From Sphingomonas sp. S1-29 (GTDB lineage Bacteria; Pseudomonadota; Alphaproteobacteria; Sphingomonadales; Sphingomonadaceae), in NCBI RefSeq assembly GCF_026167545.1, contig NZ_CP110678.1, positions 1,547,501 through 1,611,500 on the forward strand: 64,000 bases of DNA. The letters are read 5' to 3'. Under the pieces are notes generated by a model, which made no database searches, was not told the origin of the DNA, and worked only from the letters and a program-made list of their open reading frames with translations. Shown here one piece after another: positions 4,547 to 64,000 of this stretch. Position numbers and translations under genes: made by a program. The first letter of the stretch is position 1, and every line of letters begins with the position of its first letter.

Positions 4547-5050
4547 CGGCGGTGTCTAATCCTTGCATCCGGCGGTCGAGTGCAGCCGCACCCCCAAGGG
4601 GGTTGCCGGGTTTCGGCGCGGTGATGCAACGTTCCGCTAGGTCAAAAGACGCCTTCGTGGATGTCGACGAAGATCGCAAGCCAGTTGATGGGGATTGGGC
4701 TGCGACAAGGCCAACCCCACCCTTTCCTCCGCCGCCGGAGGGAGGATTAATCGTGTCGAACGGGCGGCGCGGCACCGCCACTTTCCTCCCCCGCCAGGGG
4801 GAGGGGGACCGCGCAAGCGGTGGAGGGGGCGGACACGCGCGAGCCGTTGGGGGTCCTCCCCCTCCGCCATGCTGCGCATGGTCCCCCTCCCCCTTGCGGG
4901 GGAGGATGGTTTGGGGCGGGGGCTGCTAGGCGCAAACGCTGCCCCCCTGGTGGAGGAGGACTTCCGTTGCGTTAACCCTCATCCGTTTCGTGATGGGACG
5001 GGGTGGTTTGGGGGCGCGAAGGGCGTCGAATTTTGGGCTATGCGGGCTGC
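4547..5050. other. Intergenic region with B-type inverted-repeat element (about 4782-4915)
   Basis: About 500 bases without a credible gene. The right part holds a GC-rich element with outer arms CCTCCCCCGCCAGGGGGAGG (4787-4806) and CCCCCTTGCGGGGGAGG (4890-4906), and inner purine/pyrimidine arms (GTGGAGGGGGCGG against CCCCCTCCGCCA). It resembles the other B-type elements in this window. The left part (4547-4780) looks featureless apart from a short run of C and G. Any promoter for the downstream hydrolase would lie in 4920-5050, but no strong hexamers were seen. Confidence 0.5.
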
Positions 5051-19912: not shown

Positions 19913-20040
19913 TCTCCCCTCCCTGGAAGGGAGGGGTCGGGGGTGGGTGGGTTCCTGGCGATACGGTTGCCGCCTGCGACCGGGCGGCCGTAGCGTGAGC
20001 ACTCGACCCACCCCCATGCCCTCCCTTTCAGGGAGGGGGG
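19913..20040. repeat. A-type intergenic inverted repeat (copy 1)
   Basis: About 128 bp with terminal palindromes CTCCCCTCCCTGGAAGGGAG (left end) and CTCCCTTTCAGGGAGGGG (right end), inner arms GGGGGTGGGT and ACCCACCCCC, and a central part containing a conserved GTGAGCACTCGACCCACCC-like segment. It lies between fumC and the small-membrane-protein pair. Three more copies lie at 28783, 31463 and 63586. Confidence 0.85.
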
Positions 20041-20042
20041 TT

Positions 20043-21434
<1,392 letters not shown>

Positions 21435-27167: not shown

Positions 27168-28724
27168 ATGAAGTTTGGGCGCGTAAAGCCACTCGACGCC
27201 ATCCTGGCGACGGCGAAAGCCAAATCGCTCGAGCCCACGCTGGGCTGGTTCCAGCTGACGCTGTTCGGCATCGGCTGCGTCATCGGCACGGGCATTTTCG
27301 TGCTCACCTCGGCGGGCGCGCAAAAGGCGGGGCCGGGCTTGATGCTCGCCTTCGCGATCGCGGGACTGATCTGCATCGTCGCGGCGCTTTGCTATGCCGA
27401 GATCGCAGCGATGATCCCGGTCGCGGGATCGGCTTACACCTATACCTATTCGGTGATGGGCGAATTGCTCGCCTGGACGGTCGGCTGGGCGCTGGTGCTC
27501 GAATATGCCGTCGCCGCCAGCGCGGTCGCGGTGGGGTGGTCGGGATATTTCTCAGGCACCATCCTCAACCAGTTTTTCGGCATACAATTGCCGGCATGGC
27601 TGGCGGGCGGTCCGCTGGCGCTGGGCGGCGTCCCCGGCGGGTTCATCAACTTGCCCGCGGTGGTGATCGCCGGGCTGGTCACCTGGCTGCTGATGATCGG
27701 CACCAATGAATCGGCCAAGGTCAATGCGGTGCTGGTGGCAATCAAGGTCACCGCGCTCACGGTATTTATCGTGTTGACGCTGCCGGAGTCCGAAATGGCC
27801 AATTTCAACCCGTTCCTACCTGCGGGCGTGTTCGGCGGCTTCGGTTCGGGCGTCGGCGCGGTCGGTGCCGCAGCGACGATCTTCTTCGCCTATGTCGGCT
27901 TCGACGCGGTTTCGACCGCCGCCGAAGAGACCAAGGACCCGCAGCGCAACGTGCCGATCGGGCTGATCGGGTCGCTGGGCTTCTGCACCGTCTTCTACAT
28001 TCTGGTCGCCGCCGGCGCGATCGGCACGATCGGCGGCCAGCCGATCATGGGTCCGGGCGGCGTCCCCTTCCCCGCCGGATCGGAAGCGCTCGCGCAGCAA
28101 TGCGCGCTGCCGCAATATGCCGACATGCTGGTCTGCTCGAACGAAGCACTGGCGCATGTGCTGCGGATGATCGGCTTCTCGACCGTCGGCAACCTGCTGG
28201 GGATCGCGGCGTTCGTCGCGCTGCCGTCGGTGATCCTGATCCTGTTGTTCGGCCAGACGCGCATCTTCTTCGTGATGTCGCGCGACGGCCTGCTGCCCGA
28301 GAGCCTGTCGAAGATCCACCCGAAGTGGAAGACGCCGTACATCGTGACGGCGATCACCGGTGCGGTCGTGGCGTTCGCCGCGGCGTTCCTGCCGGTGGGC
28401 CAGCTTGCCGATATCGCCAATGCGGGGACGCTCTATGCCTTCGCGATGGTCGCAGTAGCGGTGATGATGCTGCGCAAGTCGGAGCCTACGCGCGAGCGCA
28501 AGTTCCGCGTGCCCGCGCTGTGGCTGGTGGGGCCGGCGACGATCGCGGGCTGTATCTTCCTGTTCCTGAACCTGCCGTTCGAGGCGATGATCGTCTTGCC
28601 GGCTTGGGGCGCGATCGGGCTCGTGATTTATTATCTGTATGGCTATAAATCGAGCCATCTGGGCAAGGGGATCGTGACCGTCGTCGATCTCGACAACGAC
28701 CCGGACCATACCCCGCATCCTTGA
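27168..28724 (+). CDS. Cationic amino acid transporter-type APC permease
   Basis: A 518-residue membrane protein with about twelve to fourteen helices. The first helix FGIGCVIGTGIFVLTSAGAQ (residues 35-54) is the APC substrate-binding signature. CYAEIAAMIPVAGSAYTYTY follows, and FFAYVGFDAVSTAAEETKDP near residues 240-259 is typical of the CAT/YfnA branch. A loop containing two Cys (QQCALPQYADMLVCSNEAL) sits near residue 310. The ATG at 27168 is preceded by GGGGGA. A strong terminator follows the stop. Confidence 0.9.
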   Translation: MKFGRVKPLDAILATAKAKSLEPTLGWFQLTLFGIGCVIGTGIFVLTSAGAQKAGPGLMLAFAIAGLICIVAALCYAEIAAMIPVAGSAYTYTYSVMGELLAWTVGWALVLEYAVAASAVAVGWSGYFSGTILNQFFGIQLPAWLAGGPLALGGVPGGFINLPAVVIAGLVTWLLMIGTNESAKVNAVLVAIKVTALTVFIVLTLPESEMANFNPFLPAGVFGGFGSGVGAVGAAATIFFAYVGFDAVSTAAEETKDPQRNVPIGLIGSLGFCTVFYILVAAGAIGTIGGQPIMGPGGVPFPAGSEALAQQCALPQYADMLVCSNEALAHVLRMIGFSTVGNLLGIAAFVALPSVILILLFGQTRIFFVMSRDGLLPESLSKIHPKWKTPYIVTAITGAVVAFAAAFLPVGQLADIANAGTLYAFAMVAVAVMMLRKSEPTRERKFRVPALWLVGPATIAGCIFLFLNLPFEAMIVLPAWGAIGLVIYYLYGYKSSHLGKGIVTVVDLDNDPDHTPHP

Positions 28725-28746
28725 GGGCGCGGGGGTTACGAAACGA

Positions 28747-28777
28747 AAAGGCCGGGGAGCGATCCCCGGCCTTTTTT
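28747..28777 (+). terminator. Rho-independent terminator
   Basis: AAAGGCCGGGGA-GCGA-TCCCCGGCC-TTTTTTA: a 12-base stem with GNRA-like loop and T-run, 23 bases after the permease stop. Just beyond it begins the A-type repeat. Confidence 0.92.
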
Positions 28778-28782
28778 ATGTT

Positions 28783-28909
28783 CTCCCCTCCCTGGAAGGG
28801 AGGGGTTGGGGGTGGGTCTGGTCCGGGGGGACGGTGCCGGGCAGCGCGCCGGGCAGTCGTATCACGAGCACTCGACCCACCCCCGGCCCCTCCCTTTCAG
28901 GGAGGGGAG
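28783..28909. repeat. A-type intergenic inverted repeat (copy 2)
   Basis: About 127 bp: left palindrome CTCCCCTCCCTGGAAGGGAG, right palindrome CCCCTCCCTTTCAGGGAGGG, inner GGGGGTGGGT/ACCCACCCCC arms and a central ACGAGCACTCGACCCACCCC block. It lies between the permease terminator and the end of the PfkB kinase gene. Confidence 0.88.
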
Positions 28910-28915
28910 GTTTGC

Positions 28916-29914
28916 TCACCCCAGCTTGGCGTCGATCATCGCCTGCAGGTCGACCTCGGGGCGGGCACCGTAATGCGAGATGATCTCGGCGGCGCACAGC
29001 GCGCCCATCCGCAGCGAGGTCTGAACGTCGCGACCCTGTGCCTGGCCGCGCAGAAAGCCCGCGGCGAACAGGTCGCCCGCGCCCGTGGTGTCGACCACGC
29101 GCGCGATCGGCTCGGCGGCGACCGCGAAGCGCTCGCCGTCCTTCACCGCGATCGCGCCATGCTCGCTGCGCGTCACCACCAGCAGCGGCACCTGCGCCGC
29201 CGCCTTGGCAACCGCACCTTCGAAATCCTCGGTCTCGCACAAGGCGAGCAGCTCGTTCTCGTTGGCGAACAGGATGTCGATCAGGCCGTCGGCCATCAGC
29301 TGGCGGAAATCGCCGCCGTGGCGCGAGATGCAGAAGGTGTCCGACAGCGTGAAGGCGACGCGGCGCCCGGCGGCGCGCGCGATGTCGATGCCGGCGCGCA
29401 TCGCCTGGCGGGGTTCTTCGGGATCCCAAAGATAGCCTTCGAGATACAGGATCGCGCCGGCTTCGATCAGCGACCGGTCGAGTGCGGCTTCGGGCAGGAA
29501 CTGCGACGCGCCGAGAAAGGTGTTCATCGTCCGTTGGCCATCGGGGGTGACGAAGATCAGGCAGCGTGCGGTGGTCGGCTCGCCGGCGCGGACGCTGGTA
29601 TCGAAGCGGATGCCCGCGGCGCGGATGTCGTGCGCGAAGACTTCGCCCAACTGGTCGTCGGCGACCTGGCCGATGAAGCCGCATTTGCCGCCGAGCGCCG
29701 CGATCCCCGCGACGGTGTTCGCCGCCGAACCACCCGAGACTTCGCGGCCCGGACCCATCTTGGCATAGAGCGCATCGGCTTCGGCGGGCGAGAACATCAA
29801 CTGCATCGAGCCTTTGGTCATGCCCTGTTCGGCGATGAAGGCGTCGTCGGCTTGGCTGAGAATGTCGACAATGGCGTTGCCGATGGCAACGACATCCAGC
29901 GTAGGTTCGGTCAC
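28916..29914 (-). CDS. PfkB family carbohydrate kinase, probable adenosine kinase
   Basis: A 332-residue ribokinase-fold kinase. N-terminal DVVAIGNAIVDILSQAD; GSAANTVAGIAALGG near residues 57-71 (PfkB signature 1); and the C-terminal signature VVDTTGAGDLFAAGFLRGQ near residues 274-292 with the catalytic Asp. The pattern fits the proteobacterial adenosine kinase-like group, though the substrate is an inference. The start is GTG at 29914 with CGGAGA upstream. The A-type repeat lies six bases beyond the stop. Confidence 0.88.
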   Translation of the reverse strand: MTEPTLDVVAIGNAIVDILSQADDAFIAEQGMTKGSMQLMFSPAEADALYAKMGPGREVSGGSAANTVAGIAALGGKCGFIGQVADDQLGEVFAHDIRAAGIRFDTSVRAGEPTTARCLIFVTPDGQRTMNTFLGASQFLPEAALDRSLIEAGAILYLEGYLWDPEEPRQAMRAGIDIARAAGRRVAFTLSDTFCISRHGGDFRQLMADGLIDILFANENELLALCETEDFEGAVAKAAAQVPLLVVTRSEHGAIAVKDGERFAVAAEPIARVVDTTGAGDLFAAGFLRGQAQGRDVQTSLRMGALCAAEIISHYGARPEVDLQAMIDAKLG

Positions 29915-31462: not shown

Positions 31463-31589
31463 CTCCCCTCCCTGGAAGGGAGGGGTTGGGGGTGGGTCGG
31501 GTCCTGGGGTACGGTACCCGACGGCGCCTTGGGCGGTCGTATCGTGAACACTCGACCCACCCCCGGCCCCTCCCTTTCAGGGAGGGGAG
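31463..31589. repeat. A-type intergenic inverted repeat (copy 3), overlapping the queG 3' end
   Basis: About 127 bp with the same palindromic ends, inner GGGGGTGGGTC/GACCCACCCCC arms and central CGTGAACACTCG block as the other copies. Its right arm extends into the last codons of queG, so the gene's stop codon (31577-31579) is part of the repeat. Confidence 0.88.
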
Positions 31590-43455: not shown

Positions 43456-43531
43456 GGGGCTGTAGCTCAGACGGGAGAGCGCTGCAATCGCACTGCAGAG
43501 GTCAGGGGTTCGATTCCCCTCAGCTCCACCA
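43456..43531 (+). tRNA. tRNA-Ala (anticodon CGC)
   Basis: A 76-base cloverleaf including encoded CCA. Acceptor GGGGCTG pairs with CAGCTCC; D-arm GCTC/GAGC; anticodon arm CTGCA/TGCAG with loop ATCGCAC, so the anticodon CGC (43489-43491) reads GCG alanine codons; T-arm AGGGG-TTCGATT-CCCCT. The convergent FAD oxidoreductase gene ends four bases later. Confidence 0.93.
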
Positions 43532-59936: not shown

Positions 59937-60133
59937 CCCCCTCTGTCACGGAACCTGAGAGCTTTCGCCGCCGCCCCTGTCGGGCGTTGTTCGGCTTACC
60001 CCTTCGGTGGACGCCAGCTCAAAGCCGCGCCGCTTTCCAGAGTGTCGTCGGCACCGCGCGGTCCCGTGTACCTGAGAGATTCCGGGGCGGTTGCTCCTTC
60101 GGTGGCTTCGGTTGTCCGAAACGCTCTCCCGCG
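59937..60133 (-). promoter_or_regulatory. Tandem glycine riboswitch
   Basis: Leader of the gcv operon, read on the minus strand. Two aptamers are visible, each with the conserved glycine-riboswitch core. First: GCGGGAGAGCG...CCACCGAAGGAGCAAC...AATCTCTCAGGTAC. Second: TCCACCGAAGGGGTAAGCCG...AAGCTCTCAGGTTCCGTGAC, ending AGAGGGGG. They are joined by a short linker. The distance from the second aptamer to the gcvT ATG is about 60 bases. In this class glycine binding usually switches on the cleavage genes; the expression platform here was not resolved. Confidence 0.93.
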
Positions 60134-60168
60134 CGTGCCCATGCCGGTTGCCCGGTATCGACGATCAA

Positions 60169-63585: not shown

Positions 63586-63711
63586 CTCCCCTCCCTGGCA
63601 GGGAGGGGTCGGGGGTGGGTCGAGGCCTGCGGGTACGGCTGCCCCGCCAGCCGAGGCGACCGTATCGCGAACACTCGACCCACCCCCTGCCCCTCCCTTT
63701 CAGGGAGGGGG
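63586..63711. repeat. A-type intergenic inverted repeat (copy 4)
   Basis: About 126 bp: left CTCCCCTCCCTGGCAGGGAG, right CCCCTCCCTTTCAGGGAGGG, inner GGGGGTGGGTCG against CGACCCACCCCC, with the central CGTATCGCGAACACTCGA block. Its right end overlaps the 3' end of the terminal oxidoreductase gene. Confidence 0.88.
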
Positions 63712-64000
63712 GATCAGCAACCTCCCCGGCGCATACACCGCCGCATCGAGCCCCGCGATCCAGTCGGGCCGCTCTCCCCCGACGAGCAACCACGCCGCCA
63801 GCGCCGCCGCGGCGGGCGCGGTCTGGATGCCGAAGCCGCCTTGGCCCGCGAACCAGAAGAACCCCTCGGCGCTCGGATCGAAGCCATATACCGGCAGCCG
63901 ATCGGGAGCGAAGCTGCGCAGCCCGGCCCAGCGGCGCTCGACCGCCTCGATCCGCCAGTCGACCGCGCGCTCGAAGCGGTCGATCGCGGTGGCGACATCG
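63700..64000 (-). CDS. FAD-dependent oxidoreductase (DAO family), C-terminal part
   Basis: The 3' end of a minus-strand gene running off the right edge. The last 99 residues are visible, including AVERRWAGLRSFAPDRLPVY and GFDPSAEGFFWFAGQGGFGI followed by QTAPAAAALAAWLL. This is the FAD-binding C-terminus of glycine/D-amino acid oxidase-like proteins. The last codons (IPPP) and the TGA stop lie inside the A-type repeat. The 5' end, substrate and full length cannot be seen. Confidence 0.82.
   Translation of the reverse strand, partial: DVATAIDRFERAVDWRIEAVERRWAGLRSFAPDRLPVYGFDPSAEGFFWFAGQGGFGIQTAPAAAALAAWLLVGGERPDWIAGLDAAVYAPGRLLIPPP

Follow-up and report, generated by a model that had tools for sequence, protein, structure and literature searches.

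The closest described counterparts of the repeat reported here are the REPINs of Pseudomonas fluorescens SBW25, which are REP doublets that form hairpins and are associated with RAYTs (PMC3116915). The CGTC-tagged REPs of alphaproteobacteria, which occur in S. wittichii and S. chlorophenolicum, are described as short palindromes, mostly arranged as dimers and located predominantly downstream of genes, and were reported without a dedicated transposase; how RAYT-less REP families spread, and whether they are still forming, was regarded there as an open question in 2013 (PMC3733652). In E. coli, REPs that lie no further than 15 nt from a stop codon have been associated with a stop-proximal translational effect (Liang et al., 2015, as relayed in PMC12306157 and PMC5082802), and the Br-REP1/2 sequences of Bradyrhizobium are palindromes in 3′-UTRs, with Br-REP1 lying between convergent genes (PMC5082802).

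The stretch of Sphingomonas sp. S1-29 DNA analysed here (64,000 nt, hereafter the window) carries four copies of a hairpin-forming repeat, termed the A-type element. Like the SBW25 REPINs, it is an inverted REP pair with conserved ends and a less conserved spacer of set length that folds into a long hairpin, is extragenic and occurs as singlets and doublets; unlike them, it has other ends, no RAYT was found for it, and it has a marked tendency to abut stop codons (PMC3116915). Its palindromes resemble the CGTC-tagged REPs in forming dimers downstream of genes for which no RAYT was found, but differ in the stem, in the lack of a CGTC tag and in the G-rich tail of the unit (PMC3733652). Neither a GTAG nor a CGTC tag was present at the hairpin foot, as judged from the alignment and flank composition; elements with CGTC ends (D type) do share slots with the A type. 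As with E. coli REPs, the hairpin lies a few nt past the stop codon (PMC12306157 and PMC5082802), and as with Br-REP1/2 these are alphaproteobacterial 3′ palindromes whose abundance differs strongly between relatives, although the sequences are unrelated (PMC5082802). Since it both behaves and is built like a REPIN but has neither tag nor RAYT, the A-type element is best placed among REPs outside the GTAG and CGTC superfamilies. No published description of it was recognised in the literature searched, the coverage of which stopped short of most subscription journals. We consider it probable that the A type is a RAYT-less, REPIN-like family of stop-adjacent 3′-end hairpins, the slots of which turn over without a Y1 transposase.

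Architecture and Predicted Fold

The features referred to below are given in window coordinates. G152 is a relative that is 95% identical to S1-29 and collinear with it over 7 kb, and G166 is more distant (87% identity over 4.4 kb).

27168..28724, plus strand: gene flanking the focal slot on the left, from our gene calls
28746..28777, plus strand: terminator-like hairpin with a T-run behind the left gene, adjoining the focal element (by eye)
28783..28909, plus strand: focal copy of the A-type element, 127 bp, with convergent genes on either side
28783..28805, plus strand: left terminal palindrome of the focal copy
28808..28817, plus strand: left arm GGGGGTGGGT of the focal copy
28833..28858, plus strand: core unique to the focal copy, the central 26 nt used for core comparison
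28875..28884, plus strand: right arm ACCCACCCCC of the focal copy
28887..28909, plus strand: right terminal palindrome of the focal copy
28916..29914, minus strand: gene flanking the focal slot on the right, from our gene calls, its stop 6 nt from the element
19914..20040, plus strand: A-type element separated by 2 nt from the stop of minus-strand gene 20043-21434; B-type element in the G152 slot
31463..31589, plus strand: A-type element, 4 nt past one stop, with a 13-nt overlap with the other gene; identical over 127 nt in G152
63586..63712, plus strand: A-type element, 3 nt past one stop, with a 13-nt overlap with the other gene; identity to the G152 orthologue 0.91

The sequence-only reading had listed four 127-bp copies starting at 19913, 28783, 31463 and 63586; the last three positions are exact, whereas the first is one base off, that copy starting at 19914. 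All copies share, with single changes, the features that it described: a palindrome at either end, the GGGGGTGGGT/ACCCACCCCC arms and, in the middle part, the CGTATCG..CACTCGACC block. The element can be described as a 35-nt unit, CTCCCCTCCCTNNNAGGGAGGGGNNGGGGGTGGGT, present as an inverted pair around an interior of ∼57 nt, the middle of which is copy-specific. Each unit comprises a 9-bp stem, a 3-nt loop, a 2-nt linker and a G-rich tail, and is unrelated in sequence to the REPs of E. coli. Read from the alignment and flank composition, the element edges follow a weak consensus, YTT|CTCCCC...GGGGAG|AAG.

For each of the four window copies the predicted fold is a single long hairpin (-102 to -109 kcal/mol), and none of 200 dinucleotide shuffles per copy folded as well (z -9.0 to -10.6). 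Selection on folding, which had been proposed from the preserved ends, is not borne out by the alignment: the paired ends do not vary in sequence and covariation in paired columns is almost nil (covariation term 0.04, with any double change in 2 of 35 pairs). None of the curated Rfam families matched the element, gathering scores in the window being reached only by a tRNA-Ala (43456-43531, plus strand) and a glycine riboswitch aptamer (60049-60141, minus strand). Hairpins similar to that at 28746..28777 are present, by eye, at the focal slot of relatives. A second hairpin family, the B type, is represented in the window at 4782-4906, where ends TCCTCCCCC..GGGGGAGGA are arranged on a plan like that of the A type. 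Besides A, seven label families (B, C1-C3, D, E and F, with the C labels overlapping) occupy gaps of the S1-29 genome; at some C-type elements, such as that in the gap at G000:C1:1890917, the immediate flanks form inverted repeats by eye, extending the hairpin.

Copy Number and Interior Sequences

A 21-base palindrome search allowing two mismatches detected 165 sites genome-wide, against none for a backwards control. Covariance model R1, built from 18 S1-29 copies, gave at least 148 strand matches in the 3.38-Mb genome, corresponding to about 77 distinct loci; this is a lower bound because 148 of the 150 candidates scored were matches. A palindrome-pair scan of extracted stretches recovered 71 elements, missing eight of the 77 loci and gaining two others. 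Lengths cluster tightly, 57 of the 71 being 125-129 nt (49 of them exactly 126 or 127), 11 being 102-108 and the remaining three 116, 118 and 135.

Among these 71 elements the arms have a median identity of 0.91, whereas the median for the central 26 nt is 0.46 over 2485 pairs (shuffle null 0.42), with only two pairs reaching ∼0.85. Freely gapped alignment of 600 random S1-29 pairs gives raw identities of 0.607 for the core and 0.703 for the inner parts. Orthologous cores of S1-29 and G152 agree at 0.905 over 13 pairs, with gaps counted as mismatches, and since copies within S1-29 do not agree, cores are passed on in place yet differ between copies. Lengths differ in four of the 13 orthologous pairs (by 1, 1, 4 and 10), and element length is less free than core sequence. 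Capture of cores from elsewhere in the genome was considered and set aside: the longest core matches in 864 kb of S1-29 sequence were 23, 23, 22 and 21 nt, a slight and unconvincing excess over shuffled cores (up to 20 nt) and reversed random 26-mers (21 nt).

Placement Relative to Genes

Placement was scored for 38 A-type elements in 864 kb of S1-29 sequence, with genes called by our own script. Gaps between predicted genes contain 36 of them (21 tandem, 12 convergent and three divergent), and the other two lie within one predicted gene. The latter are short elements (G000:C1:1624706 and 1625603; locus L061) in a minus-strand prediction spanning 1624239-1626801, and their G152 counterparts are of the D and E types. 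Where a gene 3′ end lies alongside, 26 of 33 elements have an edge no more than 9 nt from the stop codon, against 12.0 expected from random placement in the same gaps; the median distance is 4 nt, and one of the 26 overlaps the gene by 13. Solo palindromes behave similarly (8 of 14 within 9 nt, 1.2 expected). Among the other families counted, C1 (5 of 20, 5.7 expected) and D (1 of 11, 2.1 expected) are not enriched, and C2 elements lie near stops less often than the 15.4 expected among 46, its pattern being loose and also capturing C1 copies; E (2 of 6, 3.0 expected) and F (6 of 10, 4.6 expected) comprise few elements. Stop adjacency thus marks the A family and not C1, C2 or D. That the window copies lie beyond gene ends, as first described, applies to two of the four, while in those at 31463 and 63586 the final 13 nt overlap a minus-strand gene (own gene calls), the stop codon of which falls inside the palindrome loop.

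Occurrence in the Genus and Beyond

Within the genus, 33 of 37 genomes were matched by model R1, 29 of them with at least three strand matches, and four gave none; the absence elsewhere that the sequence-only reading had named as refuting is thus not what is seen. Outside the genus, one to five weak matches were obtained in 5 of 24 genomes, and strong matches were restricted to the genus among the 61 genomes. The exact 35-mer was found in at least 119 stretches, and the named records carrying it are mostly Sphingomonas among the matches listed; the pattern picks perfect units, and taxon counts among these matches are not rates.

The unit is also present in Prevotella-type metagenome-assembled genomes, from unrelated rumen bacteria; at least 26 loci (GC 0.51-0.61) bear the titles Prevotella, Prevotellaceae or Bacteroidaceae and derive from at least 17 assemblies, as counted by accession prefix. 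Among the matches listed, CT follows 29 of 30 perfect units at the Bacteroidota-titled loci and the arms point outward, the dimer being inside out, in 15 of 16 close pairs, against arms pointing inward in 78 of 80 close pairs at the other 93 loci. Identity of the unit across the phyla is set by the search pattern, whereas its presence, orientation and neighbours are independent of it. Misbinned contigs probably do not explain all of the Prevotella units, given that the two groups of loci carry dimers of different kinds, and shared descent, transfer or convergence may each account for the unit in both phyla. The reversed orientation suggests that it is the unit, rather than the dimer, that is recognised.

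Turnover of Slots Between Relatives

In the BLAST comparison with relatives, 103 of 295 genomes were left unscored. For the comparison with G152 (864 kb of S1-29 against 800 kb), printed alignments were read by eye, and 34 of the 38 S1-29 elements had syntenic flanks. The G152 slots facing them hold the same element in 13 cases, an element of the same family with another interior in four, a solo palindrome (sometimes degraded) in nine and another family in seven; one is empty. Conversely, the 21 G152 elements face 13 of the same, four of the same family with another interior and two of another family in S1-29, with two lacking synteny. Full A pairs number 38 in S1-29 and 21 in G152, with 17 solos in each, and the nine cases of a full element facing a G152 solo have no converse among 19 comparable G152 pairs. 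At the G152 counterpart of S1-29 position 2052795, a D-type element is accompanied by residual sequence from the right end of an A element, and at 1831082 A elements with three different interiors occupy the slot in three genomes. For G166, 20 slots were queried, 18 fetched and 15 readable; by eye these comprised two A elements with other interiors, one E, one D, six single or degraded hairpins and five without a palindrome, so slots are not obligatory.

The focal slot was surveyed by eye in S1-29, G152 and 20 further relatives hand-picked from good BLAST matches. Among these 22 genomes it holds an A element or close variant in four, a B element in three (one a single palindrome), a C element in three, other inverted repeats in six, a short hairpin in one, a gene in one and nothing in four. 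In L095 (G021:C12), a stretch of ∼1.5 kb, glycosyltransferase-like by eye, fills the slot instead of a repeat. Since both G152 and G166 carry a C-type element there, that of G166 partly deleted, the S1-29 element seems, by parsimony, to have replaced a C-type element. Eight family labels were applied to 425 mapped gaps, with 47 of 472 mapped gaps (short, non-convergent) left out; the tight labels gave nine matches in 668 coding chunks. With shared slots excluded, double occupancy of S1-29 and G152 gaps by non-alignable cassettes was found in 13 convergent, 24 tandem and six divergent gaps, against 6.1, 6.3 and 0.5 expected if independent, and unequal tolerance of gaps could be the source of part of this excess. 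Orthologous slots at 95% and 87% identity thus hold the same element, a solo, another family or nothing, and the copies do not simply vary together with their flanking genes. The proposal of a non-autonomous mobile element is accordingly upheld in kind by the differences between orthologous slots; the insertion event itself went unobserved, as there is neither a target duplication nor an empty/filled pair with a recognisable donor.

It is conceivable that the elements are non-mobile functional 3′-end hairpins that are held by selection and are slowly lost or changed in place. The stop adjacency of the A family fits this, as do the constrained end positions of orthologous elements, substituted at 13 of 728 sites (several of them misaligned deletions, with an indel in 3 of 26 units) against 44 of 698 in interiors. 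Such an account is nevertheless unlikely in view of unrelated families in one slot between 95%-identical genomes, the C-type element that the focal copy seems to have replaced and the three interiors at 1831082. The end counts had also been used for dating, as young ends around unrelated cores, an argument that indels had inflated (25 of 728 before realignment, 13 after) and that is kept as a hint only. At 5% divergence, 13 of 34 elements still sit unaltered at their sites, and some of the family may therefore be ancient and simply under constraint.

Slots could also be exchanged by homologous recombination with species carrying another repeat there, which would account for clean swaps, for cores new to the genome and for the many families at the focal slot of relatives. 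Over the innermost 60 nt, genes at the 43 swapped slots show lower similarity (identity 0.879 at 0-30 nt and 0.924 at 30-60 nt) than those at 249 slots with neither (0.955 and 0.952), with 29 one-sided slots at 0.889 and 0.939; edge misalignment may be behind part of this divergence. Beyond 60 bp, however, swapped slots (0.938-0.945) are as similar as slots with neither (0.940-0.946) and no imported tract was detected in the flanking genes, so any imported tracts must be very short and exchange of this kind appears quite unlikely.

Search for a Transposase

Across the 38 elements, flanking 4-mers never match and 3-mers match three times against 1.0 expected, and the absence of a target-site duplication remarked on earlier extends to this larger set. 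The long terminal inverted repeats, the length of about 127 bp and the patchy occurrence in the genus would suit a MITE moved by a DDE-type transposase coded elsewhere, yet the missing duplication, the unrelated cores of the copies and the common solo palindromes make this very unlikely. No full-length relative came to notice in the course of the other comparisons. One window element with its flanks had no match to plasmids, and another had none to phages, at E 1e-5. Nineteen stretches of viral contigs carry the unit, all at 68-73% GC, and our guess is that they represent prophage or host DNA.

The sequence-only reading had looked to a REP-associated transposase in the same genome. The single S1-29 match to PF01797 (RAYT/Y1 transposase) is a gene split over two frames, with no A-type palindrome nearby. 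It lies in an apparently IS605-like element (G000:C1:2621607-2624891; L031), with tnpA frameshifted and an adjacent reverse-strand stretch that resembles tnpB by layout and eye. PF01797 is missing from 36 of 38 relatives, many of which have dozens of element strand matches, the exceptions being G006 (one strong match) and G032 (four weaker ones). Among the genomes of 20 unit-bearing loci, 15 match (13 of 14 Bacteroidota and 2 of 6 others, those of L203 and L207). In the 15 Y1 loci inspected (5 of 5 from relatives and 10 of 25 from unit-bearing genomes, 2.2-3.4 kb each), no good copy of the palindrome was found, L304 having one match with four mismatches. Movement of a classical REPIN by a RAYT that is resident, or was so until recently, is thus very unlikely and appears largely refuted for Sphingomonas, despite an architecture matching that of REPINs, in whose spacers length and the capacity to form a hairpin are said to be important (PMC3116915), and despite Y1 genes in some Sphingomonadales and most of the Bacteroidota searched.

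Loss of SbcCD was considered as a reason for the persistence of long palindromes and rejected: S1-29 has only a sub-cutoff TIGR00619 match, but the copy-rich G166 and G017 have full matches, and over 34 genomes (18 matching, two above the cut-off) the pattern was absent.

Proposed Role and Implications

In the preferred reading of a RAYT-less, REPIN-like family, the A-type element is a dimer of two inverted 35-nt REP units round an interior with a copy-unique centre of ∼25 nt, a single strand of which is expected, from folding predictions, to form one extended hairpin. Its placement at stop codons points to a 3′-end role in the cell, where a hairpin flush with the stop codon may protect the mRNA 3′ end, block transcription or exert a stop-proximal effect like that of E. 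coli REPs. Few copies seem, from an uncounted impression of the alignments, to have a T-run behind the hairpin, which makes simple intrinsic termination unlikely for most of them. As the two palindromes are also direct repeats of each other, solos would arise mainly by deletion between them, and full elements would be gained and replaced at gene-end slots via a process that does not involve a Y1 (RAYT) transposase.

A bolder and rather improbable conjecture is that full elements are each put together from standard ends and a new core of set length, by hairpin-templated repair or an unrecognised enzyme, so that cores are not inherited by copies. If true, this process would act on several unrelated repeat families at gene-end slots, and its unit would be common to Sphingomonadales and Prevotella-type Bacteroidota in opposite dimer orientations.

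For the RAYT-less, REPIN-like family itself, the main consequence is that several families, A included, differ from slot to slot between genomes that are ∼95% identical, one of which has no Y1 match and the other a broken one. Differences between genomes as close as these make the spread of RAYT-less REP families directly testable by comparison of close strains, and the stop-adjacent placement of the A family provides a handle on its function.
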